From Paenimyroides aestuarii (GTDB taxonomy: Bacteria; Bacteroidota; Bacteroidia; Flavobacteriales; Flavobacteriaceae), in contig NZ_CP102382.1 in NCBI RefSeq assembly GCF_024628805.1, positions 1,178,001 to 1,242,000 on the forward strand: a stretch of 64,000 bases of DNA. The letters run 5' to 3'. Position numbers and translations under genes: made by a program. A model generated the notes under the pieces. That model worked only from the letters and a program-made list of their open reading frames with translations, had not been told where the DNA came from and searched no databases. The first letter of the stretch is position 1, and every line of letters starts with the position of its first letter. Shown here one piece after another: positions 49,134 through 62,638 of this stretch.

Positions 49134-49150
49134 CTTTAAAAAATTTGATG

Positions 49151-49158
49151 CAAAAGTA
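49151..49158 (-). promoter_or_regulatory. Promoter -7 box (TACTTTTG) for the siderophore receptor
   Basis: A TAnnTTTG match on the minus strand about 18 bp before the start codon. It rules out the upstream GTG start. Confidence 0.5.
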
Positions 49159-49330
49159 CCATTGTTTTTATTTAAAACAAATAAAAATAATCTTTTTTTG
49201 AAAGGAAATTTTTGTTTTGTTTTTCCAAGAAAATAGTATGATTTCTGCACCACAAAAAGGGGAGGAGTGTGGTGTATAAATTAAAGCATTGATTGCGAGC
49301 AGCATCACAGGTTTAAAGCTAATTTTCATA

Positions 49331-49369
49331 AAAAAAGAAAATCCCGGTGAGAGGGATTTTCTTTTGGTT
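49331..49369. terminator. Hairpin terminator
   Basis: GAAAATCCC / GGGATTTTC with a seven-base loop and flanking A and T runs. It lies in the gap between ssb and the receptor and would stop readthrough from the ssb side. Confidence 0.7.
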
Positions 49370-49586
49370 TTTACCCGTAGGGTATGACCTAAATAACTTT
49401 TAACACGATGATATGCAGTGATTTGATTTTACCACAGATATACTGATCTAGTTTTACAAATGAATGTTACTATCAATGAAACTTTCACAGATTTTGAATA
49501 CGATGTATTCTATAAGATGCATCGCTTTATAAGTTGCGCTCATTTATTCGTAATCATCTGTGCATCTTTGGAAATGCTATAAGGCG
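49370..49586. other. Non-coding gap with a degenerate CACAGAT-type inverted repeat
   Basis: No reading frame is supported. ACCACAGATATACTGAT near 49431 and AATCATCTGTGCATCT near 49550 are partly complementary. They look like a worn copy of the dispersed CACAGATT-type palindromes seen in flavobacteria. Nothing else was recognised. Confidence 0.35.
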
Positions 49587-49925
49587 CTACGGATTTTGAT
49601 TTAAAAAAAACAGCACTTCGCTGATTACAATTTCGGTAATGCTGCGCTTGATGCCCTCTTTATCCTCGTAGGTGCGATAAGTAAGTTTACCCTCCACGGC
49701 AATTTCTTTACCTTTTTCAACATATTTTTGAATCAGTTCAGCGGTTTTGCCCCATGCAACGATGTTGTGCCATTGGGTGGTTTCCACTTTTTCTTTTTTA
49801 TCGTTGTAATAATAATCACTGGTTGCAAGCGATAAGGTTACTTTTGTACCATTGTCAAAAGTTTTGGTTTCTGGTGTGTTGCCTACTCTCCCGATTAAGC
49901 GAACGTTGTTACGTAATGTACTCAT
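49587..49925 (-). CDS. ssb: Short single-stranded DNA-binding protein
   Basis: A 112-residue OB-fold SSB: NNVRLIGRVGNTPETKTFDN, WHNIVAWGKTAELIQKYVEKG and YRTYEDKEGIKRSITEIVI are typical. It stops at LFFLNQNP and lacks the acidic, Phe-ended C-terminal tail that housekeeping SSBs use to recruit partners. It is therefore probably the accessory short SSB seen in many flavobacteria. It faces away from the cassette array that begins about 190 bp upstream of it. SSB is known to affect attC folding, but the neighbourhood could be chance. Confidence 0.88.
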   Translation of the reverse strand: MSTLRNNVRLIGRVGNTPETKTFDNGTKVTLSLATSDYYYNDKKEKVETTQWHNIVAWGKTAELIQKYVEKGKEIAVEGKLTYRTYEDKEGIKRSITEIVISEVLFFLNQNP

Positions 49926-50079
49926 GGCGTATAAAATTTATGATTAAATAATGATTTGGTACAAAGTTGCGACAGCTTGCAAATTTTATTCGGTTGTTAA
50001 ACATTTGTAGTCGATTGTAAATGTTTGTTGTCGATTATATGGTTTATTAACAGCTATTTGTGGGTTCATATTTTATTTT

Positions 50080-50121
50080 TTGTTAATTAAGAAACTTTCG
50101 TATATATTTGTGTTGTGTGCC
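50080..50121 (+). promoter_or_regulatory. Array promoter and first recombination core (attI-like)
   Basis: TTG (50080-50082) and TATATTTG (50103-50110), 20 bases apart, form a Bacteroidota promoter pointing into the array. Two bases later is GTTGTGTGCC (50112-50121), the exact reverse complement of GGCACACAAC that opens the first attC-like site at 50588. It is thus the leading end of the first cassette, with a promoter directly before it, as in the Pc-attI layout of integrons. Which bases would form the attI site itself is not clear. Confidence 0.6.
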
Positions 50122-50145
50122 ATTTAAGAAAAACTGAACGCTGAA

Positions 50146-50607
50146 TTGAAAAATATCAAATTTTTAATAACCAAATATTACTTTTTCGGACTGATTTTTC
50201 TTTTCGTTTTTTATGCTATTATTGGAGAAATCCCAAGTTGGTACACAATTGAAAGAGATTGGATTGAATGGATTACGACAATAATTTCGATACCATTAAT
50301 CGGAATATTAGCTTTTAAATATTTGACCAAATATGTTGGAAAAGAAAAACAAAAATATTTCGGAATATCATTTTTTGCTCTTTTTGTTTCGTGGATTTTA
50401 ATATTGTACTTTAAAGCATTAGTTATCGGAATAATAAGTTCGTTTGAATTTGAGCGAATACGAATATTGGAATCGCTTGCTGGATATTCGATTTATCAAC
50501 TTTGGATTTATGGAATATTTGGAATAATTCACGGAATAGTTGGCGGATATTTTTTATCAAAAGAATTGAAAAATAATGAAAAAAAAACGGCACACAACAA
50601 TGTATAA
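50146..50607 (+). CDS. Cassette 1: hypothetical four-helix membrane protein
   Basis: A 153-residue protein with four likely membrane helices (about 10-28, 43-60, 72-95, 116-138). It uses TTG as start (gaaTTGaaaaa), as does the first gene of cassette 5. I do not recognise a family. It is the first gene of the array, 24 bases after the leading core, and its last codons (KKTAHNNV) run into the attC-like repeat. Confidence 0.6.
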   Translation: MKNIKFLITKYYFFGLIFLFVFYAIIGEIPSWYTIERDWIEWITTIISIPLIGILAFKYLTKYVGKEKQKYFGISFFALFVSWILILYFKALVIGIISSFEFERIRILESLAGYSIYQLWIYGIFGIIHGIVGGYFLSKELKNNEKKTAHNNV

Positions 50608-50727
50608 CCGCAATTACTGCGGATTCGACTACGTCCGAATCCACTCGGAATTGCTAAAGTTTGTGCCTCGTTTGAAATTTTTCACTAAATTTGGCCGTAA
50701 CTGCGGTTATACGAAACCGTTAGCGGT
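50588..50727 (+). repeat. attC-like site 1
   Basis: Opens with GGCACACAAC and closes with ACCGTTAGCGGT. The arms GTATAACCGCAATTACTGCGG-like (50601 on) and CCGTAACTGCGGTTATACG (about 50695-50713) are nearly perfectly complementary. The opening bases are the exact reverse complement of the cassette's own start (50112-50121). A TAAATTTG promoter-like box lies in the central loop (50686-50693). Confidence 0.8.
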
Positions 50728-50777
50728 CAGGCTAAAACGACCCTACAACAAACAAATTACAGACAATTAACAAAAAC

Positions 50778-53700
50778 GTGAAACACAATCCAAGATACAT
50801 TTTAAAACACCTTTCAATTCGTGTGCCTTGGCACGACAATGCGTGGAATGGTTCTGTTTGCAATAATCCGAAAGCCAATGGTGCTTGTCTTATTTTAAAA
50901 AACTGTGCGTTAAACAGAAATGACGAGTTGGAAGACAGCACAAAAGGAAAATTCCTAAAAGACTTAGACGAAGAGCAATATCCTGTTTGTGTTGGCGAAC
51001 GAGCAACATTTATGTCGTCATTCGCTTTTTACAAAACCTTGCGACATCCATACGCAGAAAGTTCGCCAACAACACACGGACATTTAAAGCCGACAAAAAT
51101 TCAATTCCCAGCTTTTTCAGCAGCAGCAGTTCCCTATCATTGGATGCTAAAAGAAAATGCAAAAGAGAAAACAAGTTTATATGACTTGAATTTTGACGAA
51201 AGCCGAGAACCACAACTTGATTGGGCAACAAGCGGAAATGACCATTGGGTTCAAGAACTAAATAATCAGAAAGCATTACTAAATGCTTTTTTTGAACATT
51301 TATCGCCAAAGCATTCTCTTGTTTTTTTCTACGCTAAACAAACTCCGTTTGTAGAAGAATCGGGAAGAGTTTTAGTAGGCGTTGGAAAAATTAACAATAT
51401 CATTCCTTCCGATGCATATGAAGGAAGCAACAAAAATTTTTCTGCGGCATATTGGGAACATATGATTTTGCATTCCATTAGAAATGACGGTAAAAATGGT
51501 TTCCTTCTGCCTTATCACGAAGCGATTTCATATCAAGAAGAAAATATTGACTTTGATATTGCAGAAATAGCGGTTATTGTCCCAAACGACAAACGTTTTG
51601 AATTTTCGTATGCAGCCGAACACGTAAGTAATGATAGTGCAATTAGAGTCTTATTAGAGTGTGTAAAATCATTAGAAAAAGCGGAAGAATTAGGAATTGG
51701 GGACAACAACACTTTAAAAATTCAATGGATTCACAACGAAATTGCCGAGTTGGAAAAATTGAGAGGTGCTTATCCCGGAATGGGTTCAGCACTTTGTGCT
51801 TTTGGAATTGAAAAAGGTCATTTTGTTGCTGCGGAAATCATTAACCAACTGAAAGACGATAAGGAAAATCCTTGGCTTCTTTTTGAAAAAGCATTGGACA
51901 ATGCAAAAGGTATTTTATCAGATGCGGTTGCTGCATTAATTCCATTTAACAGCAAAAAACTGTATCAACAATTAAAAACCAGAGCAACGCCAACTCGTAT
52001 TCAGTTTCTACACTTACTAAGTCGTTTTGACTTGAATATTGAGCAAGCGAAATTTCTTTTTGTTCACGAAGAAAGAGAAGAATTAGGAATTGGCAGAAAA
52101 GACGAAGAATATATCAATAATCCATATTTGATTTACGAGGATTTGCGATTAACGGCTACACCAATAGCATTAGGAACAATTGATTTAGGATTATACTTAA
52201 AAAAGGGAACTGATAATTTGTTACCAAACGACATTTTGTATTCAGACCCTTTTGAAAATAATCGCATAAGAGCATTAACGATACAACAATTAGAATTTGC
52301 ATCTATACTTGGACACACTTTATTGCCACGTAAAGAAATAATCAAACAAATTCGAAGTTTATCTATTTCGCCAGCTTGTGATATTAATAGCGATTATTTT
52401 GATTTAGCCGAAACTGTATTCGCGGACACAATTACATTGGAAGAAATGAAAAACGGAGAAAGGGCGTATCAATTAAAACGTTTTTCAGAAACAAGGGAAA
52501 TCATCAACCAAAAAATCACTCAACGAGTAAGTGCAAAACGACTTGAATTAAATGCAGATTGGAGTTCTTTATTAGATAATGCTTTAAAAGCATTTACCAA
52601 AGGTAAACCCGATGAGCAAGAATTAAAGGCAAGAAAAGAGAAAGCCGCTGCATTGAAAGAAATTGCAGAAAGTAGATTTTCTGTATTGATTGGTCCCGCT
52701 GGAACAGGAAAAACAACGTTGCTTACCATTTTAGCAGGACAAAAAGAAGTGGAAGACAACGGAGTTCTTTTGCTTGCCCCAACAGGTAAAGCAAGAGTGC
52801 GAATGGAAGAAGTTGCTAAAGACATAAATGTTACCGCAAAAACATTGGCACAATTTCTTTCTGGCTACGGAAGATACAACGGAGAAGTGCAACGATATGT
52901 TTTTTCAAATGAACATTGCGACCAATATGCAACAGTTATTCTTGATGAGGCATCAATGCTTACAGAAGAAATGTTAGCCACTACCTTAGATTGTTTACAA
53001 GGAGTAAAACGTTTCATTTTAGTTGGTGACCATAGACAATTACCGCCAATAGGTGCAGGTCGTCCATTTCTTGACATAATTCACTATTTGAAACCTGAAG
53101 GAATTGAAACTTCGTTTCCAAGAATTGGTAAAGGTTATGCAGAGCTTACTATAAAACGCAGACAAGGCGGAACAAAAAGAGAAGATTTACAACTTGCAGA
53201 ATGGTTTAGCGGAGAATCTTTAGAACCTGGAGCGGACAGTATCATAAACCACATAATTACAACACCTAATTCAAATTATCTACGAATAGAATATTGGGAA
53301 AACGAAACGGAATTTGAAAAGAAATTTGAAGAAGTTTTAGTTTCAGAATTAGGAATGTCGTCCATTGAAGACGTTGAAACTTTTAATAAAACTTTAGGTT
53401 CTTCTGATGGTAGATATTTTAACTTCAGAGAAGCCGCTAATTCAGCAGAACATTGGCAGATTTTATCGCCTGTTAGAGAAAAAGTTTTTGGCGTTAGAGC
53501 ATTAAATAGAAAAATACATAAGCAATTCAGAAAAGACAAAGTTGAATATGCCCGTAACAAATACGGTAAAATCCCTGCACCAATTGGGTTAGAAGAAATT
53601 GTATATGGCGACAAAATCATCAATTTGTTTAATAGTCGTAGAAATGAAGTATGGCCAGACGGTTCATTGAATTACGTTGCAAATGGCGAAATCGGGATGG

Positions 53701-54518
53701 TAATTGGACAATTCAAAACGTCCAAAATGACTTTTAAAGGAAGACCCAAAAACACAGAGATAGAATTTACTTCTCAGAAAGGCTACAAATACACTTTTAA
53801 AGGTTGGGAGTTTTCCGAAGAAGCAAATAATCCTCTTGAATTGGCTTATGCGTTGACAGTTCACAAAGCACAAGGAAGTGAATTTGGTAAAGTTTTTATT
53901 GTAATTCCTAATCCTTGTTTCTTGTTGTCAAGAGAAATGCTTTACACAGCGCTAACACGACAAAAGGACAAAGTAATTTTGCTCATTCAAGGGAATGCAT
54001 TTGACATAAAGGGATTTGCTTCGCCAGCAAAATCAGACGCACTAAAAAGAATAACTAATTTATTCAACAATCCCGAACTAATTGACATAGAAGGTCAATA
54101 TTTAGAGAAGAATTTAATTCACCAAGCAAGTGACGGAAAAATGTTACGCTCTAAAAGTGAATTATTGATTTATCAGCGTTTAATCGACAAGAAACTAAAT
54201 CCGCTTTACGAGAAAAAACTTTTCATTAAAGAAGTAGAGAAACTTCCCGACTTTACTATTGAAAACGATGATACAGGCGAAGTTTATTATTGGGAACATT
54301 GCGGAATGTTACACGACAAAGAATACAAACAACGTTGGGAAGAAAAATATACTTGGTATAAAGAAAACGGAATACTTCCTTTTGACGAAGGTGGTGGAAA
54401 AAATGGAACACTTATAGTAACGGAAGACAAACAAACCGTAGTTGAAGACGGTAGCATACGGGGTGCAATATCAGTTAAAGAAATTGACGAAATAATTGAA
54501 AAAGTATTTAAAATATAA
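50778..54518 (+). CDS. Cassette 2: RecD-like helicase with nuclease-like C-terminus
   Basis: A 1246-residue protein. The N-terminal 300 residues (HLSIRVPWHDNAWNGSVC onward) form a domain I cannot name. A superfamily 1B helicase follows: Walker A LIGPAGTGKTTLL near residue 636, Walker B VILDEASMLTEE near 716, GDHRQLPPIGAGRP near 750 and a UvrD/RecD-type C-terminal motif ALTVHKAQGSEFGKV near 1025. Residues about 1125-1200 (LRSKSELLIYQRL, LPDFTIEND, YYWEHCGM, RWEEKYTWY) have the E-x(n)-D-x(n)-E/H-K spacing of a PD-(D/E)xK-like nuclease. It is very large for a gene cassette. I infer a stand-alone DNA-targeting defence enzyme; DNA repair is the alternative. Confidence 0.82.
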   Translation: MKHNPRYILKHLSIRVPWHDNAWNGSVCNNPKANGACLILKNCALNRNDELEDSTKGKFLKDLDEEQYPVCVGERATFMSSFAFYKTLRHPYAESSPTTHGHLKPTKIQFPAFSAAAVPYHWMLKENAKEKTSLYDLNFDESREPQLDWATSGNDHWVQELNNQKALLNAFFEHLSPKHSLVFFYAKQTPFVEESGRVLVGVGKINNIIPSDAYEGSNKNFSAAYWEHMILHSIRNDGKNGFLLPYHEAISYQEENIDFDIAEIAVIVPNDKRFEFSYAAEHVSNDSAIRVLLECVKSLEKAEELGIGDNNTLKIQWIHNEIAELEKLRGAYPGMGSALCAFGIEKGHFVAAEIINQLKDDKENPWLLFEKALDNAKGILSDAVAALIPFNSKKLYQQLKTRATPTRIQFLHLLSRFDLNIEQAKFLFVHEEREELGIGRKDEEYINNPYLIYEDLRLTATPIALGTIDLGLYLKKGTDNLLPNDILYSDPFENNRIRALTIQQLEFASILGHTLLPRKEIIKQIRSLSISPACDINSDYFDLAETVFADTITLEEMKNGERAYQLKRFSETREIINQKITQRVSAKRLELNADWSSLLDNALKAFTKGKPDEQELKARKEKAAALKEIAESRFSVLIGPAGTGKTTLLTILAGQKEVEDNGVLLLAPTGKARVRMEEVAKDINVTAKTLAQFLSGYGRYNGEVQRYVFSNEHCDQYATVILDEASMLTEEMLATTLDCLQGVKRFILVGDHRQLPPIGAGRPFLDIIHYLKPEGIETSFPRIGKGYAELTIKRRQGGTKREDLQLAEWFSGESLEPGADSIINHIITTPNSNYLRIEYWENETEFEKKFEEVLVSELGMSSIEDVETFNKTLGSSDGRYFNFREAANSAEHWQILSPVREKVFGVRALNRKIHKQFRKDKVEYARNKYGKIPAPIGLEEIVYGDKIINLFNSRRNEVWPDGSLNYVANGEIGMVIGQFKTSKMTFKGRPKNTEIEFTSQKGYKYTFKGWEFSEEANNPLELAYALTVHKAQGSEFGKVFIVIPNPCFLLSREMLYTALTRQKDKVILLIQGNAFDIKGFASPAKSDALKRITNLFNNPELIDIEGQYLEKNLIHQASDGKMLRSKSELLIYQRLIDKKLNPLYEKKLFIKEVEKLPDFTIENDDTGEVYYWEHCGMLHDKEYKQRWEEKYTWYKENGILPFDEGGGKNGTLIVTEDKQTVVEDGSIRGAISVKEIDEIIEKVFKI

Positions 54519-54532
54519 CAACAAAAGCCCGA

Positions 54533-54669
54533 ACCGCTAACAAGGTATTGCCAAAAGCGGGGCTGAAGTGCGTATTTAGAAATTTTTGCATATATTTGGC
54601 TTGAGGTATTTCTATTGACCTTGGGTGCAAAAATCCCCGCCTTCGGCAATACCCAAACCGTTGTACGTA
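54533..54669 (+). repeat. attC-like site 2
   Basis: Opens with ACCGCTAAC, the exact reverse complement of the start of cassette 2 (GTTAGCGGT, 50719-50727), and closes with GTTGTACGTA. Long complementary arms GGTATTGCCAAAAGCGGGG and CCCCGCCTTCGGCAATACC flank a loop with TATATTTG (54591-54598). Its left arm (25 bases from 54543) is identical to that of site 6. Confidence 0.85.
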
Positions 54670-54686
54670 ATGTTAAAACAAATCTC

Positions 54687-55331
54687 GTGAAAATTATACT
54701 CGTAATATTATTGTCTGTTTTTAGTTTTGCTAAGGTATTTGCAACTGCACAATATCCTGACAGAATCGTATTTAATAACAAAGAATATTCTTTACTCACA
54801 AATCCACTTGAAAAATATTTTGAAAAGAATGAAGATAAACGACCTAAAGGTGGTGTAATGTCAACAGCTTTATGGAGAGGCTATGTTGCAACATTCGAAA
54901 TAATTGAAAATCAACTTTACGTAAAAGACATAAAAATTCAAATTTGGAATGAAAAATCCGATGATACAGAATGGAAAAGTGTGATAAATGAAGTCTTTCC
55001 GAAAACTGAAGATCGGAAAATTGATTGGTTCAATGGTCTACTTACTTTACCATATGGAGAATTAATTAATTATGTTCATATGGGATATGGTTCAACTTAT
55101 GAAAATTATATAATAATTGAAATTGAAAAAGGTAAATATATAAAGTCCAAAGATTTAAACTTCAAGGAGTATGAGAATCTTAAAGAAAAACAATTTGAAG
55201 CTTACATAAAGTCTAACGAATATCTTGAACGTAAAAAAGAACTAAAAAAAGATGGTTGGAAACAAAAAGATATAGATGGATTTTTAAGAAGTTTCGTTAC
55301 TGAATACACCGAAAAATTACTAATTGAATAA
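54687..55331 (+). CDS. Cassette 3: secreted hypothetical protein
   Basis: A 214-residue protein taking GTG 54687 as start, which gives the signal peptide (V/M)KIILVILLSVFSFAKVFA. Longer readings begin inside attC site 2 and are rejected. The mature part starts with TAQYPDRIVFNNKEYSLLTN and includes STALWRGYVATFEI and a charged helical C-terminus (about 160-214). I do not recognise a named family. It is the only gene of its cassette. Confidence 0.65.
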   Translation: MKIILVILLSVFSFAKVFATAQYPDRIVFNNKEYSLLTNPLEKYFEKNEDKRPKGGVMSTALWRGYVATFEIIENQLYVKDIKIQIWNEKSDDTEWKSVINEVFPKTEDRKIDWFNGLLTLPYGELINYVHMGYGSTYENYIIIEIEKGKYIKSKDLNFKEYENLKEKQFEAYIKSNEYLERKKELKKDGWKQKDIDGFLRSFVTEYTEKLLIE

Positions 55332-55337
55332 AAACAC

Positions 55338-55474
55338 TACGTACAACATCGGTTTGGCGAAATGGCGGGTGCAGTGCAAAATTCAACGGCAGTTTTTCAA
55401 TTGAACTTTAGTAATAAATTGAAGCTTTGTTCTCCGAAACCCGCCCGAACGCAAAGCCCGAACCGTTAGCAAAC
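55338..55474 (+). repeat. attC-like site 3
   Basis: Opens with TACGTACAAC, the exact reverse complement of the start of cassette 3 (GTTGTACGTA, 54660-54669), and closes with GTTAGCAAAC. The arms (CGGTTTGGCG...GGCGGG and CCCGCC...CCGAACCG) are complementary with bulges. Confidence 0.75.
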
Positions 55475-55479
55475 ATTGA

Positions 55480-56661
55480 ATGAAACACTCCATAATAGCA
55501 ATTTTTTCTCTGTTACTTTTATTTAATTGTAAAAACAAAAGTTTAATTGAAAATAAAGTAGCAGAAATTGAAATAAGTCAACCTATTCAAGACACAATTG
55601 GTTTAGACTCTATAAGTGTTGTTAGAAAAACACAAGCAAATATTCCATATCATCTAACTGGCATTGATAATGATATAGCACTACCATTTAACTATTCCAT
55701 TGATTACAGTAATGGTACATATGTTTTTAAGTGGCATTTGTGTGATTTGGTTATCGATAGTGATTCGTTAAACTATTCTCATTATAACTTTGAAAATAAT
55801 ATTCCATACAAAGGGTATATCGGTTTTGAAGGTAAGTTACATATTGTTAAAACGACGGACTCCTCTAGTGTAACAACCAAAAAATTTATACAACAACATA
55901 CAGAACTTTACCGTAAAATATATTTTTCTGATAAAGAAAGTATTATATTCAAATCTAATAGAGGAGCCATATGTACACTATATTTTAAGTATTCCAATAA
56001 AAGTAGTACCTTTTCTATATTCTATAAGGAAAATGAGACACTTGGTTTTGATGCGTCAGAACAAGAGTTGTTAGATTTAGCTATTTCTCAATTAAGGGTT
56101 GCTAAAAACCTATATAATACTAGTTTTAATAAGAACTTATTAGATTGGAATCATTACAAAAACGGGTTATCTATACTGGATAAAAAAGTTTATAAAAATA
56201 TACATAAAGGCATTATAAATTCTTTAGACACAATAAGTATGGATGAAGTTTACACGCCAAAAATTGATGGGAATTGGGATTTGGTTTCGATAATAAAAAT
56301 TGGAAATGAAGCAGAAAAACTCTGGAACGCAATAAATAATATTGATAAAAATAAAAAAGTAGATTTTCAAAAAAAATATGATACGCAACTATCTGAGCAA
56401 ATTGCTTTTTTACGCTCTGCTGAAAACTTCGTACAGCTAGAGTATAAAGATGAAAATACACTAATTATTAAGAAAGTCTATGATTATTCAAACAAAATAG
56501 ATTATGTGGTTTTTAGGAAGGAAATCATCAAAAATAAAGAGATATTGATGTTTACAGGTGGGCGGCAAAACTATGGACAAATTAATTCTAAAGAAATGGC
56601 TTATTTTTATCTCAAACTATTTGAAAACTATAAAACGTTTGCTAACAATGGCTATAAGTAA
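55480..56661 (+). CDS. Cassette 4: hypothetical lipoprotein
   Basis: A 393-residue lipoprotein (lipobox LLFNC near residue 17). The body is a mix of beta strands (about 50-180) and a helical region (about 195-330) with no motif I know. The last eight codons (TFANNGYK and the stop) are part of attC site 4, which begins at 56637. The start is six bases after the cassette core, so the mRNA must come from an upstream promoter. Confidence 0.65.
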   Translation: MKHSIIAIFSLLLLFNCKNKSLIENKVAEIEISQPIQDTIGLDSISVVRKTQANIPYHLTGIDNDIALPFNYSIDYSNGTYVFKWHLCDLVIDSDSLNYSHYNFENNIPYKGYIGFEGKLHIVKTTDSSSVTTKKFIQQHTELYRKIYFSDKESIIFKSNRGAICTLYFKYSNKSSTFSIFYKENETLGFDASEQELLDLAISQLRVAKNLYNTSFNKNLLDWNHYKNGLSILDKKVYKNIHKGIINSLDTISMDEVYTPKIDGNWDLVSIIKIGNEAEKLWNAINNIDKNKKVDFQKKYDTQLSEQIAFLRSAENFVQLEYKDENTLIIKKVYDYSNKIDYVVFRKEIIKNKEILMFTGGRQNYGQINSKEMAYFYLKLFENYKTFANNGYK

Positions 56662-56772
56662 TTGGGGCTTAAGTGATAAAACGAAAGTATAAACATAAAA
56701 CAAAGGTCGGTGCTAAACCGAAAAGTTAGGGCGTAAAATCCCCAACTGTTCATAGTCCAACCGTTGTAGCAC
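56637..56772 (+). repeat. attC-like site 4
   Basis: Opens with GTTTGCTAAC, the exact reverse complement of the start of cassette 4 (GTTAGCAAAC, 55465-55474), and closes with GTTGTAGCAC. Arms CTATAAGTAATTGGGG and CCCCAACTGTTCATAG pair with one small bulge. The left arm shares CTATAAGTAATTG with site 7. The site overlaps the end of the lipoprotein gene. Confidence 0.82.
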
Positions 56773-56794
56773 ATTTGAAAAAACTATTCCCGAA

Positions 56795-57046
56795 TTGAAA
56801 AGAAAAATAGGAATTACAATATTCACAATAGGAATTTTAATCGTCTCAAAATTTTGGGTTGGAATCTATACTCACGATGAATTTGGAGGAAAAAATGTTT
56901 TTATTAAACATAGACCGATTTGGAAAACGTTTTTTTATTCACCAAGAGGAATGAGTGATTTAAAACTATCTGAAATGTCAACTGAAAAACAAACTGAACA
57001 AATACTATTCGATGAATTTGTTTTAAAACATCAAACAATCGAATAA
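56795..57046 (+). CDS. Cassette 5a: small membrane-anchored hypothetical protein
   Basis: An 83-residue protein from a TTG start (gaaTTGaaaag), with one N-terminal membrane helix (about 5-24) and a polar tail (HDEFGGKNVFIKHRPIWKTF). Family not recognised. It lies in the same cassette as, and two bases before, the zinc-ribbon gene, with no attC between them. Confidence 0.55.
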   Translation: MKRKIGITIFTIGILIVSKFWVGIYTHDEFGGKNVFIKHRPIWKTFFYSPRGMSDLKLSEMSTEKQTEQILFDEFVLKHQTIE

Positions 57047-57047
57047 A

Positions 57048-57353
57048 ATGGAAATTAAATATTGCTGGAGATGCAAAATGGAAATTCCAATGTTGGACAA
57101 AGAAGAATTTGCTATCGCTTCTAAATTATACTCAAAAGGATTTAAAATAGCAAAAGTGGATAGAAAGGAGAGATTTAAAGAATTATTGGAATACTATAAT
57201 AAGTTGACTGGATTTGGAGAAACTGAACCGAATGCGATTATGCATCACTCACTTGAACAAGTCGGACCTGATTGTGAAAATTGCGGAAAACCATATAGAA
57301 CACCAAAAGCAAAAATGTGTGCGAATTGTGGAAATAAAAGAAAAGTTGAATAA
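57048..57353 (+). CDS. Cassette 5b: zinc-ribbon protein
   Basis: A 101-residue protein with two pairs of Cys pairs: CWRC near residue 6-9, and CENC and CANC near residues 77-80 and 92-95. The middle is helical (DKEEFAIASKLYSKG to LEYYNKLTGFGE). A zinc-binding structural or nucleic-acid-binding role is likely; the family is not known to me. It starts two bases after the stop of the preceding small gene, so the pair is probably translated together. Confidence 0.65.
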   Translation: MEIKYCWRCKMEIPMLDKEEFAIASKLYSKGFKIAKVDRKERFKELLEYYNKLTGFGETEPNAIMHHSLEQVGPDCENCGKPYRTPKAKMCANCGNKRKVE

Positions 57354-57360
57354 TAAAAAC

Positions 57361-57495
57361 GTGCTACAACACCGTGTATAGCTCATTGCGGCTGAATTCC
57401 TAATCGGAATTCATTGCAATTTGCTATCTTTCGGTTACGGCGGAAAATCCTCGCAGATCTCCCGCAACGAGCCATACACAAAACCGTTAGGCGAT
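57361..57495 (+). repeat. attC-like site 5
   Basis: Opens with GTGCTACAAC, the exact reverse complement of the start of cassette 5 (GTTGTAGCAC, 56763-56772), and closes with GTTAGGCGAT, a canonical GTTRRRY core. Arms CGTGTATAGCTCATTGCGG and CCCGCAACGAGCCATACACA are almost fully complementary. Confidence 0.85.
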
Positions 57496-57540
57496 ATGCT
57501 AAACCAACACTTTGCACAAACCGAAACGACATATAAACAG

Positions 57541-57960
57541 ATGAAAAACCAACTTTTGAAAACATTTCTTCGTATTAATATATTCAGCATTTTCACAACA
57601 TTTTTACTTGCTTTTATTTTGGTTTTTAGCTGGCAAAATTCAAAATTCTCTGAAATAGAAATGCGCAATTGTTATATGCCGTTTTTTACTGAAATCTTAG
57701 CGGTTGTATCTGCACTTTTCATTTCGCTTTCGACTCTTGGTATTTTCTTAAACTTAAACTGGAAATTCCGCCAATCAAAAACAAGAATTACTTTATCCTT
57801 TTTAGTACTTCCAATTGTGATGAGCAGTTTTTTTTGGTTAACTATATTCCAAAACGACATAGCCTACACTGAAACCATTCTAATAGCAATAGCAACATAT
57901 TTTCCTGTTTGGCTTTTCATCATCAGAGAATATTTAAAATTTTCAAAAACACTAAAATGA
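57541..57960 (+). CDS. Cassette 6a: hypothetical four-helix membrane protein
   Basis: A 139-residue protein if read from ATG 57541 (MKNQLLKTFLRIN). An in-frame ATG at 57496, directly after the cassette core, would add 15 residues and cannot be excluded. There are four likely membrane helices (FSIFTTFLLAFILVF, ILAVVSALFISLSTLGIF, ITLSFLVLPIVMSSFFW, ILIAIATYFPVWLFI). Family unknown. Its stop overlaps the next start (ATGA). Confidence 0.6.
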   Translation: MKNQLLKTFLRINIFSIFTTFLLAFILVFSWQNSKFSEIEMRNCYMPFFTEILAVVSALFISLSTLGIFLNLNWKFRQSKTRITLSFLVLPIVMSSFFWLTIFQNDIAYTETILIAIATYFPVWLFIIREYLKFSKTLK

Positions 57961-58247
57961 GAAATTTTCCACAAAAACTAACTATATATTACGTCTTTGG
58001 AATTGTATTGACTATTATCGGTATTATCGGATTGATTTTATTTGTGTCAAGTTCTGGTATGAACGACCAAATGACGGGAATGTATGCCTCAATGCTATTG
58101 ATTCCTGCATTGATAATTATTGTTATTGACCGAATTTGTGTACAGAAATTCGGAACTAAAAAAGTGAACAAATCCTCGCTCTACATTTTAGCAGGACTTT
58201 TTCTACTATATATTTTAAACACAATTAGGTTGGTGTTAGTAGGTTAA
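57957..58247 (+). CDS. Cassette 6b: small hypothetical membrane protein
   Basis: A 96-residue protein with three membrane helices (about 10-30, 43-60, 75-94). Its ATG overlaps the previous TGA by four bases, so the two membrane proteins are translationally coupled and may form a complex. Family not recognised. Confidence 0.6.
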   Translation: MRNFPQKLTIYYVFGIVLTIIGIIGLILFVSSSGMNDQMTGMYASMLLIPALIIIVIDRICVQKFGTKKVNKSSLYILAGLFLLYILNTIRLVLVG

Positions 58248-58288
58248 AAATACCACATCTAAACTTCCATATCAAACATAATATTTTG

Positions 58289-58296
58289 TAAATTTG
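58289..58296 (+). promoter_or_regulatory. Promoter -7 box (TAAATTTG) for the zeta-toxin-like gene
   Basis: TAAATTTG ends five bases before ATG 58302, inside cassette 6. It gives the toxin-like gene its own, almost leaderless, transcript. Confidence 0.45.
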
Positions 58297-58301
58297 CGAT
58301 T

Positions 58302-58886
58302 ATGACTGACAAAAAACTTTACATAATCGCAGGTTGCAACGGAGCAGGAAAAACGACTGCCTCATTTACGATTTTACCTGAGATTTTAGATTGTAAAGAA
58401 TTTGTGAATGCAGACGAAATTGCAAAAGGACTTTCCCCTTTTCAACCTGAAAAAGTTTCGTTTGAAGCAGGTAGAATAATGCTAAACAGAATCAACGAAC
58501 TACTTTCTAACAACGAAAATTTCGCATTTGAAACGACTTTATCAACCAAAAGTTATAAGAACAAAATCATCGAAGCAAAAGATAAAGGTTATCGAGTAAC
58601 ATTGTTATTCTTTTGGCTTCAAAACATTGAACTAGCTAAAGAACGTGTGAAAATTAGGGTTTCGGAAGGTGGACATAACATCGAGCCAGAAGTTATCGAA
58701 AGAAGATATATCAGAGGAATTAAAAATTTGTTCGACATCTATCTTCCAATCGTTGACGGAGCATTTATTTTTGATAACTCGGAAGTGAAACACGAACTTT
58801 TAGCGGATAAACAATTTGATACTTCACTTAATATTGTAAACATAGACAAGTTTAATCTTTTAAAAAAATACTATGACAACAACTGA
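58302..58886 (+). CDS. Cassette 6c: zeta-toxin-like P-loop kinase
   Basis: A 194-residue protein with Walker A GCNGAGKTT at residues 11-19, the switch region FVNADEIAKGLSPF, the ETTLS segment and an Arg-rich lid (RVKIRVSEGGHNIEPEVIERRYIRG). This matches the zeta-toxin-like AAA group. True zeta toxins phosphorylate UDP-GlcNAc; many relatives are of unknown function. A 50-residue gene overlaps its end by 14 bases and is a candidate antitoxin. Toxin-antitoxin pairs are frequent cargo in chromosomal integrons. Confidence 0.82.
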   Translation: MTDKKLYIIAGCNGAGKTTASFTILPEILDCKEFVNADEIAKGLSPFQPEKVSFEAGRIMLNRINELLSNNENFAFETTLSTKSYKNKIIEAKDKGYRVTLLFFWLQNIELAKERVKIRVSEGGHNIEPEVIERRYIRGIKNLFDIYLPIVDGAFIFDNSEVKHELLADKQFDTSLNIVNIDKFNLLKKYYDNN

Positions 58887-59025
58887 AAAACATATAGACG
58901 AAAAAAATAAAATACTAAAAGGACTTGAAAAAGTATATGAAAAACTTTTAGAATTTAAGAAAATGAAAAACAGCGAACTGGTTATTTTGCGTGACAACAA
59001 AATTGTTAAAATAAAACCTGAATAA
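58873..59025 (+). CDS. Cassette 6d: small candidate antitoxin
   Basis: A 50-residue frame (ATG 58873, stop TAA 59023-59025) overlapping the zeta-like gene by 14 bases. Its parts are a Lys/Glu-rich helix (NKILKGLEKVYEKLLEFKK) and a short strand-rich end (SELVILRDNKIVKIKP). This charged helix plus hydrophobic tail is usual for small partners of such kinases. That it is the antitoxin is inference from size and overlap. Confidence 0.6.
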   Translation: MTTTEKHIDEKNKILKGLEKVYEKLLEFKKMKNSELVILRDNKIVKIKPE

Positions 59026-59032
59026 TAGCACA

Positions 59033-59251
59033 ATCGCCTAACACGGTATTGCCAAAAGCGGGGCTGAAGGAATTCTAATGAAATTTTTGCTATATTTGAA
59101 CTTTTGGTAATTCTATATCGCCTTCGCCATTTGTATTTGCTTTTTATATATATTAGCAAATAAAAAATGGCTTCGGCTACTTTGGGTGATAAGTTGAAAG
59201 TTTGGTTCTTCGATTTCCCCACCATCGCAAAACCACAATCCGTCGTAAGAC
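59033..59251 (+). repeat. attC-like site 6 (unusually long)
   Basis: Opens with ATCGCCTAAC, the exact reverse complement of the start of cassette 6 (GTTAGGCGAT, 57486-57495), and ends with GTCGTAAGAC. At about 219 bases it is some 80 longer than the others. The first 70 bases copy site 2, including TATATTTG (59091-59098), but the right arm does not match that left arm well. It may be a composite of two sites or the scar of a lost cassette. Confidence 0.65.
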
Positions 59252-59266
59252 ATTCTGAGAAAACGA

Positions 59267-60001
59267 ATGACAAAACAAATAACAATTATAATTCTGACCT
59301 TTTTACTTTTTTCTTGTAAAGGAAAAAACGGAAATGAAAATCAGGGTATGGATGTGAATTCTCAATTGAAAGAAGTAACCAATTATCAAGAATTAAATGA
59401 CTTTCAAAGTGCAAATAAGCTATTGAATACCTTAATAAACGAAAATCCAAATAATGCAGAATTATATTTTCGTTTAGCTCACTCCAAAACCATTTCTAAT
59501 CCAAATCTTTTTGAAATAATGAATCTTCTTGAAGAATGCTTAAAAAGAGATTCACTAAACTTTAAAGCTCTCTATTTAAAATCTCAAGGTCTTATGTTTA
59601 TGGGAGACTTTAAAGGAGCTTTAGAAACCGAAAAAAGAATTTTAGAGAATTATCCTGATTCATTTATTTTAAAAGCTGATATTGCTTCAACATTGTTGTT
59701 TAATGGAGATTTTGAGAAAGCTATTGAATTCTCTGAATCAATATTACCAGAAAGTCCGAACATTTACGAAAACGAAAGACTAATTAGAGTACAAATATAT
59801 GCTAACTATTTTTTAGACAATATTGAGGATGTCAAAATAGGAAAAGACAAATTACAACAGCTAGGCTTCGAAACTGATTATTTACAGAAACTTATTGATA
59901 GTAAGGAACTGAAATTTGAAAACTTTGCTGTTGGAAAAAATGTTGGAAATAAACCCTGTTCACTTAATGAATTGAACATTATGTTTCCAGAAAAGAGTTA
60001 A
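59267..60001 (+). CDS. Cassette 7: TPR-type lipoprotein
   Basis: A 244-residue lipoprotein (lipobox LLFSC near residue 17). Residues about 40-200 contain several helical repeats of TPR type (NPNNAELYFRLAHSKTI, DSLNFKALYLKSQGLMFMGD and a third near 125-155 with NGDFEKAIEFSE). TPR arrays mediate protein contacts; partner unknown. Its start matches the end of attC site 6. Confidence 0.72.
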   Translation: MTKQITIIILTFLLFSCKGKNGNENQGMDVNSQLKEVTNYQELNDFQSANKLLNTLINENPNNAELYFRLAHSKTISNPNLFEIMNLLEECLKRDSLNFKALYLKSQGLMFMGDFKGALETEKRILENYPDSFILKADIASTLLFNGDFEKAIEFSESILPESPNIYENERLIRVQIYANYFLDNIEDVKIGKDKLQQLGFETDYLQKLIDSKELKFENFAVGKNVGNKPCSLNELNIMFPEKS

Positions 60002-60011
60002 AAAAAACGAT

Positions 60012-60147
60012 AACCCAACAATCGCTATAAGTAATTGCTACTTGTCGCCTACTTCTGAAAATCCGCGAGGATTTTCAGTTTGGTGTGTACTTGCAAAGTT
60101 ACGTGCTAAACCACGCAACTACACATACATGCAAAACGTTACTGCCA
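60012..60147 (+). repeat. attC-like site 7
   Basis: Opens with AACCCAAC (canonical RYYYAAC) and ends with GTTACTGCCA. The left arm CGCTATAAGTAATTG is shared with site 4 and pairs partly with the right side. The opening does not match the start of its own cassette, unlike sites 1-6, so cassette 7 may be rearranged. Confidence 0.65.
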
Positions 60148-60167
60148 TTTTAAAGCAACACACATCT

Positions 60168-60740
60168 ATGAAAAAACTTCCGAATTTTGACATAAAACCA
60201 CACGGGGAAATCTCAAGAGCATTTTTAAGACAAAATATCTTAACATTTCACCGAGCCACTGAATATATTCAAAATTTGAGTTACGGAAGAAATTCAAACA
60301 AAGAGGATTTAAAAAGCATTTTCATAGAGAAAAAAGGAACTTGTAGCACCAAACACGCTGTATTAAAACAGTTAGCCAATGAAAATGATTTTAAAAACAT
60401 TCAACTGATACTCGGAATTTTCAAGATGAATCCTCACAATACGCCAAAAGTTCAAAAGACTTTATTAGAAAATAATCTGAAGTATATACCGGAAGCACAC
60501 AACTATTTGAAGTACGAAAATGAAATTTTCGATTATACTAAACAAAATTCTTCGTCAGCAGGCTTCGTAAATGACTTACTTTTTGAAACAGAAATCCAGC
60601 CAAATGAGATTAACAATTTCAAAATTCAAATACATAAAGATTATTTAATAAATTGGCTCAATGAAAATAACAACATAAATTACTCTCTTGATGAGCTTTG
60701 GAAAATCAGAGAGCAATGTATTGAAGATTTATCAAAATGA
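60168..60740 (+). CDS. Cassette 8a: transglutaminase-like protein
   Basis: A 190-residue protein starting at ATG 60168 (MKKLPNFDIK); longer readings lie within attC site 7. A possible Cys-His-Asp triad is visible: Cys in KKGTCSTKHAVL near residue 61, His in YIPEAHNYLKY and Asp in EIFDYTKQNSS, in the order and rough spacing of transglutaminase/cysteine-peptidase folds. No signal peptide, so it acts in the cytoplasm. It overlaps the next gene by four bases (ATGA), so the two products may work together. Confidence 0.6.
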   Translation: MKKLPNFDIKPHGEISRAFLRQNILTFHRATEYIQNLSYGRNSNKEDLKSIFIEKKGTCSTKHAVLKQLANENDFKNIQLILGIFKMNPHNTPKVQKTLLENNLKYIPEAHNYLKYENEIFDYTKQNSSSAGFVNDLLFETEIQPNEINNFKIQIHKDYLINWLNENNNINYSLDELWKIREQCIEDLSK

Positions 60741-61177
60741 ACAAAAATAAATTACATACAGATAAAATAGTAAAAGGAAATCGAACCTACTTTTTTGACA
60801 TAAAAAAGAGTGAACAAGGAGATTTGTATCTAACTATTTCAGAGAAGAAAAAAACTGACAATACTTCGGAACATCATAGAGTTATGATTTTTGAAGAAGA
60901 TTTAAAGGATTTTGTGGATACGTTTAGAAATGCACTATTGAAGTTTAAAGAACTTCAACAACCAAAGACTGAAGAAAAAAAATATTCAATAGAAAAAATT
61001 AGAGCAACACACCAAAATGCCTATCAACCTTGGACAGAAGAAGATGATGAAAAACTTGAATTGTTATTTTGTGAAGGTAAAAAAGTAAAAGAACTTGCTC
61101 ATATTTTCGAAAGAAAAGAAGGAGCAATAACCTCTCGAATTAAAAAACTCGAACTAAAGGAAAAATATGGGCGATAA
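60737..61177 (+). CDS. Cassette 8b: PUR-like (DUF3276) and Myb/SANT-like nucleic-acid-binding protein
   Basis: A 146-residue protein with two parts. Residues about 12-75 (GNRTYFFDIKKSEQGDLYLTISEKKK, then VMIFEEDLKDFVDTFRNAL) match the Pur-alpha-like DUF3276 domain, which binds single-stranded DNA or RNA. Residues about 97-142 (PWTEEDDEKLELLFCEGKKV, ELAHIF, GAITSRIKKL) are a Myb/SANT-like helix-turn-helix. It is translationally coupled to the transglutaminase-like gene. DNA or RNA binding is likely; the target is unknown. Confidence 0.72.
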   Translation: MNKNKLHTDKIVKGNRTYFFDIKKSEQGDLYLTISEKKKTDNTSEHHRVMIFEEDLKDFVDTFRNALLKFKELQQPKTEEKKYSIEKIRATHQNAYQPWTEEDDEKLELLFCEGKKVKELAHIFERKEGAITSRIKKLELKEKYGR

Positions 61178-61200
61178 AACAACTACACGCTGAAAAATAC

Positions 61201-61485
61201 CGCCCACAACGGCAAACCTTGCACAACTCTCATTTTTCAGAAAACAAATAGAATATCCAACCTCGTTTAAGCTTTTTTAAGCGAGGTTTATTTTTTGAAA
61301 AGTATTTTGAAAGGGAATTTTTTTCGTACTTGTATAAAGCAAGATTCCATTTTTTTTCTATTTTTGAGTGATGAAACAGATGCATGCGGTTTTGTAAAAT
61401 AGTGCTAAATTTAAGCATTTGAATTCTATTGGGTATTTGCATTTTGAATTTCCCAACATCGCAAAGCCGAAAGCAGTTAGCCACC
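61201..61485 (+). repeat. Weak attC-like region 8
   Basis: Begins CGCCCACAAC and ends GTTAGCCACC, with AAC and GTT cores in the right places, but at 285 bases it is too long for a normal site and its arms pair poorly. A terminator hairpin lies inside (61259-61297). Probably a decayed site. Confidence 0.4.
61259..61297 (+). terminator. Rho-independent terminator inside the array
   Basis: CCTCGTTTAA / TTAAGCGAGG with a short loop and TTTATTTTTT after it. It would separate transcription of cassettes 1-8 from those further right. Confidence 0.7.
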
Positions 61486-61500
61486 ATTTAAAAGAACAAA

Positions 61501-62496
61501 ATGACAAGAATAAAAACTATTGTTTTGACAATTCTAACAGTCTTTGTACTTCAAAGCTGTAATGTTGGAACTACAGGAACTTGGAAAGACGAGAACATTG
61601 AACAAAGTCTAAAAAATGAAATTGAAACGTTGGACATAAAAGTTTTGGAGGCCGTTACTACAAATAATATTGAACTTTTGAAATCAATAATGTCAGATAA
61701 GCTATTAGAAAAAAGTGGTGATAACATTGGTCAATTGCTTGAACAAGCAAGTAGTGTGATTACTACTACTGACTATAAAGTTTTAAATCAATTTCATACA
61801 AAGAATTCAACAACAGGTATTGGAAATACTATTGTGTCAGGAGTTAGCGGACTGAATGACTATACTGTAAATTATCAAGCCTTGAACGAAGAAATGTTCA
61901 TTTCCCTTTTAATTTCCAAAAGCGGTCTTGACGAATTTATTGTTACCAACATTTATGGAAATTATCCAGATGGTTGGAAGCTCAATATCCTTCATTTCGG
62001 ACAATACAAAGTCAATGACAAAACTGCCCCTGAATTGTACTCTGAAGCCAAAGTGGAACATGAAAATGGATATTTGATTAATGCTGCGAACAATATGTTT
62101 CTAAGCTCAAGAGTGGCAAATCCCGTCAATAATTTTTGGCAATATCAAAAAGAAGAGGAAATGAAAGGGTTTTATGAAAAAGTAATGAAAGAAATAAACT
62201 CTAAATATAAATTTCCAATGACACTTGAAGCAATTGACTCAAAACCACAAATCTTGTCAATTTATCCAAAAGGAACTGAAGAAGGATATTTCCCGATGAT
62301 TGAGTATGTGACCAACTTAGACTTAAAAGATACGGTGAAAACCAACGCAGAGTATGAAAAAGTTCATTCAGAGATTATCAAAGCTTTTAATGGAATTGAA
62401 AAGAACAAGGACTATGTTATTTACAAGGCATTTAGTGAAATTCCAAACGGAAAAACGCCTGTTCCAACTTATGGATTTGTAAAAAAATTAAAGTAA
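61501..62496 (+). CDS. Cassette 9: hypothetical lipoprotein
   Basis: A 331-residue lipoprotein (lipobox VLQSC, Cys20). It starts with a helical segment (IEQSLKNEIETLDIKVLEAV) followed by a region like SnoaL/NTF2-type folds (about 40-160) and a C-terminal domain with a repeat-like NFWQYQKEEEMKGFYEKV. No motif identifies a function. It follows the decayed region 8. Confidence 0.65.
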   Translation: MTRIKTIVLTILTVFVLQSCNVGTTGTWKDENIEQSLKNEIETLDIKVLEAVTTNNIELLKSIMSDKLLEKSGDNIGQLLEQASSVITTTDYKVLNQFHTKNSTTGIGNTIVSGVSGLNDYTVNYQALNEEMFISLLISKSGLDEFIVTNIYGNYPDGWKLNILHFGQYKVNDKTAPELYSEAKVEHENGYLINAANNMFLSSRVANPVNNFWQYQKEEEMKGFYEKVMKEINSKYKFPMTLEAIDSKPQILSIYPKGTEEGYFPMIEYVTNLDLKDTVKTNAEYEKVHSEIIKAFNGIEKNKDYVIYKAFSEIPNGKTPVPTYGFVKKLK

Positions 62497-62500
62497 AAAA

Positions 62501-62638
62501 GCTTGCTAACAAAGCCTACTCAAAAGTGGTGACTCAGTGGTTAAATGAAATTTTGTGCTTCATATAGTTTAGTACAGATTTACAGTTTCGTGCTAGTTAG
62601 CCGCCCGAAAGCAAAGCCCGAAAAGCGTAGCGGTCAGC
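62501..62638 (+). repeat. attC-like site 9 (decayed)
   Basis: Opens with GCTTGCTAAC and ends with GCGTAGCGGTCAGC. The end looks like the GTTAGCGGTCAG of site 1 with one T missing. Arms pair only in part, and the opening agrees with the start of cassette 9 at the first six bases only (GTTAGC). Confidence 0.5.

Follow-up and report, generated by a model that had tools for sequence, protein, structure and literature searches.

How could a chain of gene cassettes, all facing one way, have been assembled in a bacterial chromosome with no integrase beside it? The question is raised by a 64,000-nt stretch of the Paenimyroides aestuarii chromosome (NZ_CP102382.1, positions 1,178,001 to 1,242,000; hereafter the window), in which same-facing cassettes separated by imperfect inverted repeats of 133-138 nt follow one another from position 50112 onward. 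An earlier note, made from the letters of the window, had described an integron-type gene cassette array without a visible integrase. Our analysis indicates that the window array is very probably one of five that belong to an integron-like system of the Bacteroidota with a trans-acting recombinase, and it is likely that one recombinase, encoded beside the largest array, feeds all five in trans.

Read on the top strand, each repeat, or site, consists of an outer box R'' (NNNNNNNAAC), about 3 nt, the inner arm L'', a loop, the arm L', about 6 nt (often NAAACC) and the box R' (GTTNNNNNNN). A detector of fixed geometry (score 12; 100-135 or 155-200 between AAC and GTT; AAC followed by A, GTT preceded by C) found 182 distinct sites, compared with a single match in 1.5 Mb of triplet-shuffled loci; the distance from AAC to GTT is 115-120 nt in 135 of them and 178-188 nt in a second class of 25. 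It had replaced first detectors based on duplex energy or stem score alone, which were too loose, and was itself followed by a covariance model, R1, built from 44 sites (alignment A1: 44 of 51 candidates, shorter class). R1 recognises eight sites in the window, six of them strong (E 2.7e-20 to 4.1e-11) and two degenerate, while two further listed matches (E 1.9 and E 2.7) are at chance level. Since four window sites (50590, 54533, 56638 and 57362) helped to train the model, only the remaining ones count as independent matches. The inverted repeats of about 135 bp proposed in the earlier note are thus real, and its count of nine sites becomes eight. In Rfam nothing came near a gathering score; there were two sub-threshold matches, one of which (19.8 bits vs 103.4) overlaps site 7.

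The relationship between the two ends of a cassette was also as the earlier note had claimed: in all six of cassettes 1-6 the first 9-10 bases form an exact reverse complement to the opening bases of the repeat at the cassette's own end. When each of 1507 plus-strand GTTs was compared with each of the six R'' boxes, 7 of the 9042 comparisons matched over 9 bases, and 6 of these were the cassettes themselves. The first cassettes at all five chromosomal heads, that of the integrase array included, obey the rule over 9-10 bases. Among 55 pairs of consecutive sites from 24 scanned stretches (detector score 11.5, distance 110-125 or 160-190), 29 match at all positions 4-10; 10,000 re-pairings gave 0.8 such matches on average and never more than 6. 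Taken singly, positions 4-10 each match in 37-47 pairs, position 11 in none of the 55 and position 12 in 45. The R box of classical attC sites is 7 bp long; the pattern over positions 4-12 therefore describes a longer box with a fixed mismatch at position 11, which is A.C on the top strand and G.T on the bottom. All signs are consistent with the proposal that the cassettes were built through recombination at the GTT core.

Like attC sites, the repeats are imperfect palindromes that appear able to fold as single strands. In the 44-site alignment 89.1% of stem cells are paired, compared with 70.2% after shuffling, and the covariation score is 0.441 compared with 0.139; none of 500 shuffles reached either value. 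At slid registers the score was at most 0.150, a comparison in which the unslid value is favoured by a stem structure derived from the same alignment. Three of five covariation measures exceed all 500 shuffles. The two strands differ, as they do in attC: in 43 of 44 rows, column pairs 10-138 and 29-124 are G.T when read on the bottom strand, the counterpart of A.C mismatches on top, and at stem positions 7-13 of the 182 sites mismatches turn into wobble pairs 276 times on the bottom strand vs 5 on the top. We rejected wobble pairs alone as proof of the folded strand: positions 1-5 and 7-13 point in opposite directions, and wobble by itself therefore leaves the strand unsettled. The bottom strand is the one that we infer to fold, and in its folded form it is probably the substrate of recombination. 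A promoter in every site was considered and rejected as well, the motif TAnnTTTG being confined to a minority of loops (it stands in 30 of 182 on the top strand and in 14 on the bottom, with 10.5 expected and at most 21 in any of 200 samples).

The window array has counterparts elsewhere. Across the 2.96-Mb chromosome, which is one contig (C1), R1 found 43 sites at E<=0.1 (40 at E<=0.001), 13 of them members of its training set; 42 lie in five clusters, within each of which the listed matches are all on one strand. Outside the arrays there is an isolated site-like match at C1:1556645-1556748 (E 0.001). Adjoining the 21-site array, and divergent from it, is a gene for a 355-aa tyrosine recombinase (C1:2199491-2200558), about 960 kb from the window. 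A whole-genome search with the integron integrase model TIGR02249 gave six matches at three loci. None lies in the window, where no integrase had been seen, and none lies alongside any of the four arrays other than the largest; the search for an integron-type recombinase thus ended in a likely integrase by the largest array, and in no IntI over the cut-off in this genome. The recombinase has domains PF13495 and PF00589 and, read from invariant alignment columns, the residues R, K, H, R, H and Y. A fold search placed an integron integrase first (2a3v, E 3e-15), narrowly ahead of XerA (1e-14). The origin of replication is placed by dnaA at 127-1521; replichores were not visible in the GC skew of the fetched chromosome stretches. 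A terminus at 1.24 to 1.73 Mb would make all five arrays co-directional with replication, which is no more than suggestive.

The heads of the arrays resemble insertion platforms. All four integrase-less heads share the core CTTTCG-N11-GTT with TATATTT(G/A), in the form TATATTTG or, in one, TATATTTA; the arrays open at TTTTTGTTAATTAAGAAACTTTCGTATATTTGGGT-GTT or a near-identical sequence, and the TATATTTG box sits 1-3 nt ahead of GTT. This box fits the Bacteroidetes -7 consensus, and a putative promoter-like -7 element would read into the arrays. The GTT of 50112-50114 is where DNA matches from head to head stop (window 50114-50116). In the integrase array the first cassette opens at GTT behind TATATTTG and follows the start/end rule over 10 bases, so that this genome seems to possess an attI-like site by the integrase with insertion at GTT. 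Upstream of the recombinase gene, the form TATATTTG-NNN-GTT recurs at 7 of the 22 loci in the divergent set.

Three of the heads share a longer stretch with a divergently oriented ssb-like gene, 96% identical in DNA to that of the window at 679491 (+) and 1741228 (-); the fourth integrase-less head has a 42-nt match to the core alone, without a match to this stretch. Finding an ssb-like gene next to a system that probably acts on folded single strands is suggestive. As a required part of the system it was rejected: two other genomes (G605 and G681) keep an 85-87% identical ssb stretch in which the match ends before the head core, and their R1 sites are on contigs other than that of the stretch.

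What happens at such a head over time can be read from a relative in the same genus (G746), which has 31 sites genome-wide, a recombinase 66% identical to ours with sites on the divergent side, and two ssb heads with arrays. One of these heads has a flank that matches the left flank of the window array (46567-49580) at 95.9% identity over 3015 nt; the flank of the 680-kb array matches that of the other head at 95-96% identity. Behind them the content differs. Compared with about 16 kb of its orthologue, beyond which three more R1 sites lie, the window array shares at 120 nt or longer one 128-nt site-like piece only; the 680-kb array and its orthologue share no match of at least 120 nt. The comparison of related strains for cassette gain and loss that the earlier note had called for has, in this one close relative, found different cassettes behind one and the same head, with a flank 96% identical. 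Within the relative, the three heads have an identical stretch of 174 nt that runs from TTTCG to GTT, and they diverge 4-7 nt past the first base of GTT. Traffic between arrays is suggested by cassette 3, which recurs in the integrase array with 99.86% identity over 715 nt (window 54656-55370); the left limit of the copy is at GTT, and the sequence upstream is unrelated except for the four consensus bases AACC. In the relative, all three heads (loci L240, L241 and L247) have the same stretch of about 155 nt inserted after the promoter-like core and before the parting GTT; it includes a hairpin (GATGTAGCGAAA...TTTCGCTACATC) whose motif is found inside arrays too.

The system extends far beyond the genus. 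R1 sites (E<=1e-4, at most 16 candidates scored per genome) occur in 174 of 199 Flavobacteriaceae genomes (173 of 198 genera), in 163 of 188 if the 11 genomes that supplied training sites are left out, and in 110 of 198 genomes of a phylum sample; the impression that a sizeable array is unusual in this family did not hold up. Relatives of the recombinase (E<=1e-30) are encoded in 133 of the 199 genomes, with at least 61% identity in ten (the present genome included), and sites are found in 123-128 of these 133; the count is a range because 20 of the 25 genomes without sites are listed, five of them recombinase-positive. The best 80 of at least 550 relatives, on at least 595 stretches, come mostly from Bacteroidota (Flavobacterium, Maribacter, Kriegella, Kaistella, Pedobacter, Parapedobacter, Runella, Spirosoma, Algoriphagus and others), with a few metagenome-assembled genomes labelled Ignavibacteria, Cloacimonadota, Neomarinimicrobiota or Rhodobacteraceae. 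Sites were found at 41 of these 80 loci, and 23 of the other 39 end within 700 nt downstream of the gene. At the detector setting used for the 182 sites, polarity was fixed: 23 sites lie upstream on the minus strand (10 loci) and 102 downstream on the plus strand (32 loci), with one locus showing both layouts and none of the 125 sites in either of the two remaining combinations of side and strand. The integrase gene is co-directional with the cassettes at 32 of the 41 site-bearing loci. In a quick tree (94 rows long enough, 12 named rows left out, thinned by 20 to 74), the 16 rows labelled divergent form one clade (support 97) nested in the others; eleven were so labelled by sites on that side, L082, L090 and L098 by the head motif only, and L086 and L088 by identity alone. 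Cassette anatomy, shared heads, the fixed-polarity linkage of recombinase and array in many genera and the relative's differing cassettes behind one head are features of the sequences themselves, and recombination at the sites is what we infer from them. The site matches in 174 of the 199 genomes suggest a common, largely overlooked form of integron-like gene trading in the family.

Repeats of this kind might instead be passive hairpins, such as repetitive extragenic palindromic (REP)-like elements or terminators, with gene content shifting through homologous recombination between them. Site sequence families are shared within and between genomes, which makes homologous exchange possible, and the one shared cassette does end inside a site. 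Such a family, however, would predict neither the complementarity of cassette starts and ends nor the break in homology between heads at GTT, and neither a fixed polarity relative to a recombinase nor a shared promoter-like head; we regard it as highly improbable.

Another explanation, that these are ordinary attC sites in an array built by a classical IntI since lost or located elsewhere, earns slightly less credence still. Several traits are those of integrons, namely hairpin sites with an AAC/GTT core, cassettes of one orientation, a promoter-like box and an integrase at the head, and IntI exceeds its cut-off in 105 of 395 genomes of the phylum. The linked recombinase, in contrast, lacks the additional domain specific to IntI (I2): the gap from KG..DR to HxLRH is 58-61 residues in the 89 relatives that show both motifs and 100 in 12 IntI (11 loci plus IntI1; L162, with a misassigned reading frame, left out). 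It scores 200 bits, in two stretches, against the TIGR02249 cut-off of 265, narrowly misses NF040815 (211.5 vs 220 bits), from which some relatives take the name 'site-specific tyrosine recombinase/integron integrase', and lies outside the IntI clade of the quick tree (7 rows, support 99; two long outgroup branches and few other recombinases were included). The R box of attC sites has the consensus GTTRRRY / RYYYAAC, whereas GTTRRRY occurs in 13 of our 182 sites, with 17 expected from column composition, and R1 found no site around 12 IntI matches, in short loci that span about 1.5 kb on each side. TIGR02249 matches at E<=1e-50 occur in 108 genomes of the phylum, of which one (G233) belongs to the class of the present genome and none to its order, family or genus, the size of the class among the 395 being unstated. 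The distribution of IntI and that of the I2-less system may be complementary, yet R1 sites are present in IntI-bearing genomes such as G234 and G249.

The description as an integron-type array is thus right as regards a cassette array with a GTT core, and wrong if a standard integron, or probably so if a cluster of attC sites lacking integrases (CALIN), is meant. By its anatomy the system works like an integron, though one without two defining features, the IntI insert and the GTTRRRY box. As in class 1 integrons and the Vibrio superintegron, a tyrosine recombinase heads a one-way cassette array, a promoter-like box stands at the insertion point, the site is an imperfect palindrome with an AAC...GTT core, and each cassette opens with its own R' and closes with its own R''. 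Unlike in these, most of the recombinases have an N-terminal extension of about 80 residues, the R box is 10-12 bp with spacers of about 3 and 6 nt, there are several integrase-less heads per genome, and the integrase gene is often co-directional with the cassettes. An array of CALIN shape is present, in that sites cluster without a neighbouring integrase; here, in contrast, the array has a conserved head of its own with a promoter-like box (and an ssb-like gene at three of four), repeated around the chromosome, and a plausible trans-acting recombinase accompanies it. A third explanation, in which host XerC/XerD moves the cassettes as it does CTXphi and the linked recombinase is a hitchhiker, is the least credible of the three: two further Xer-like recombinases are encoded in the chromosome and many genomes have sites with no linked recombinase detected, but a hitchhiker would not explain why the linked recombinase heads arrays in two layouts in many genera.

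We return to the integron-like system served in trans, for which the following route can be proposed. An excised cassette would be a circle with one site, R''(NNNNNNNAAC)-~3 nt-L''...L'-~6 nt-R'(GTTNNNNNNN), whose bottom strand is predicted to fold into a hairpin. The recombinase would join this folded site, at AAC/GTT, to a head composed of an L-like arm, 6 nt and GTT, the GTT behind the promoter-like box being the likely point of insertion. The product would have the cassette's R' at its start and R'' at its end, with the gene under the promoter, and resolution is predicted to be replicative, as in integrons. Acting in trans, the recombinase probably inserts and excises cassettes at all five heads.

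Several observations weigh against this account. The recombinase is tied to the remote arrays by site type and one shared cassette, and the right limit of that cassette's copy lies inside the site, after the L'' arm and not at the next GTT, a result not expected from simple cassette transfer. The start/end rule is incomplete in 26 of the 55 site pairs, some of which span an undetected or interrupted site and some of which look decayed. Two measures of covariation are unexceptional, with 15 pairs showing two-sided changes vs 13.0 in shuffles (reached by 24 of 500) and 35 further pair types vs 32.8 (118 of 500), and at L-arm positions 1-5, by the spacer, mismatches become wobbles on the top strand 82 times vs 4 on the bottom. 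In the relative's heads the GTT of the core reads GAT, with some 155 nt more ahead of the GTT at which the heads part, and TATATTTG-NNN-GTT was not seen in 15 of the 22 divergent loci. Sites occur in 46-51 of the 66 family genomes without a recombinase match at E<=1e-30 (the range has the same origin as that above). No credible site was seen in 8 of 20 fetched recombinase regions (L065, L069-L072, L075-L077), some at contig ends; some of the other 12 have weaker opposite-strand mirror matches of the same palindromes. The structure model of the recombinase is mediocre (predicted template modelling score, pTM, 0.48).

Beyond this genome, the balance inclines modestly towards a second, phylum-wide integron lineage in the Bacteroidota, in which cassettes are captured as folded strands without I2 and one enzyme serves dispersed attI platforms. 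IntI is recognised by its additional domain (PMC9668308 and PMC2426708). Surveys based on that domain would pass over this system because its recombinase does not have it, which is presumably why the system was missed; in a survey of complete genomes, Bacteroidetes proper has one complete integron, in Salinibacter (PMC9024848). Proteins of this kind may have been seen before, as members of an 'integron-like' subgroup of tyrosine recombinases whose insert is 'not fully conserved' (Smyshlyaev et al. 2021, PMC8138268), in the consulted passages of which no such arrays, sites or Bacteroidota system are described. CTXphi and XerCD provide a precedent, given in PMC4792948, for Xer-type enzymes that use a folded site although they have no I2-like domain; here, in contrast, there is no phage, and there are a dedicated recombinase and cassette arrays. 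According to the same paper, I2 'has not been identified elsewhere' and its origin and that of attC sites form a chicken-egg paradox. The question becomes testable with an integron-like system that has no I2 and that, if our reading is true, would supply the I2-less state which the paradox calls for, either as the ancestral condition or through an independent origin. The system is also a genomic reservoir of variable genes for a large phylum and, if our reading is true, would supply other bacteria with cassettes, among them defence systems and possibly genes such as tet(X3). Among the best-ranked titles and abstract openings of the open-access literature, a scope without subscription papers and preprints, we found no description of such a system.

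Table 1. Features of the window array (window positions) and positions of the five arrays in the chromosome. ORF, open reading frame; TPR, tetratricopeptide repeat; complementarity, bases of exact start/end match.
Feature	Position	Strand	Details
ssb-like gene	49587..49925	-	PF00436, 104 bits; divergent at window array head
attI-like head	50077..50114	+	TTTTTGTTAATTAAGAAACTTTCGTATATATTTGTGTT; TTG and TATATTTG boxes that would read into array
Cassette 1	50112..50718	+	ORF 50146-50607, 153 aa; complementarity 10 bases
attC-like site 1	50590..50727	+	R1 87.9 bits; training set
Cassette 2	50719..54659	+	ORF 50778-54518, 1246 aa, RecD-like helicase; complementarity 9 bases
attC-like site 2	54533..54668	+	R1 85.3 bits; training set
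Cassette 3	54660..55464	+	ORF within 54615-55331; complementarity 10 bases; also in integrase-linked array
attC-like site 3	55339..55473	+	R1 68.8 bits
Cassette 4	55465..56762	+	ORF 55480-56661, 393 aa; stop codon inside site; complementarity 10 bases
attC-like site 4	56638..56771	+	R1 103.4 bits; training set
Cassette 5	56763..57485	+	ORFs 56795-57046, 57048-57353; complementarity 10 bases
attC-like site 5	57362..57494	+	R1 91.3 bits; training set
Cassette 6	57486..59242	+	ORFs to 57960, 57909-58247, 58302-58886; complementarity 10 bases
Degenerate attC-like site 6	59034..59250	+	long; GTC replaces GTT; R1 25.1 bits, E 0.0014
attC-like site 7, closes cassette 7	60011..60146	+	R1 60.4 bits; ORF 59267-60001, TPR protein
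ORFs preceding site 8	60042-60740, 60737-61177, 61501-62496		
Degenerate attC-like site 8	62502..62635	+	last recognisable array end; R1 16.2 bits, E 0.11
Chromosome array	681-695 kb		5 sites
Chromosome array (window)	1228.6-1238.1 kb		6 sites
Chromosome array	1734-1740 kb		5 sites
Chromosome array	2068-2078 kb		5 sites
Chromosome array	2174-2198 kb		21 sites

The cargo includes candidates for defence. Of ten window proteins searched with PADLOC, one gave a strong match (cassette 2, candidate anti-phage family PDC-S68, 1520.6 bits), one a weak match (cassette 1, PDC-M18B, E 7e-5) and eight none. The product of ORF 58302-58886 in cassette 6 matches the Zeta_toxin-family NTPases (PF06414, 42 bits); that of the cassette 4 ORF matched no Pfam family. 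Elsewhere in the chromosome, one cassette of the integrase array encodes both a SMODS synthetase and a SLATT_4 protein, a pair resembling a cyclic-oligonucleotide-based anti-phage signalling system (CBASS), and the 680-kb array carries an AlbA_2 protein.

Fragments of the recombinase family (45-49% identity over 59-66% of the query) were seen on two plasmids, from Acinetobacter (NZ_CP104735.1, L176) and Klebsiella (NZ_CP084417.1, L177), each directly ahead of a resistance gene and in line with it, tet(X3) on the former and blaVEB-3 on the latter. At these loci the detector found no site of the right shape, and the R1 match by tet(X3) was non-significant (E 0.71). A GTT stretch resembling a cassette start precedes both resistance genes, and a sequence like the left half of a site follows tet(X3). 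Three copies of an IS110-family insertion sequence lie in three sites (L007, L028 and L030), in each case at the same place, after CGCAAAG of the L' arm. The IS1111-attC group targets the attC sites of integrons, a habit that these insertions resemble.

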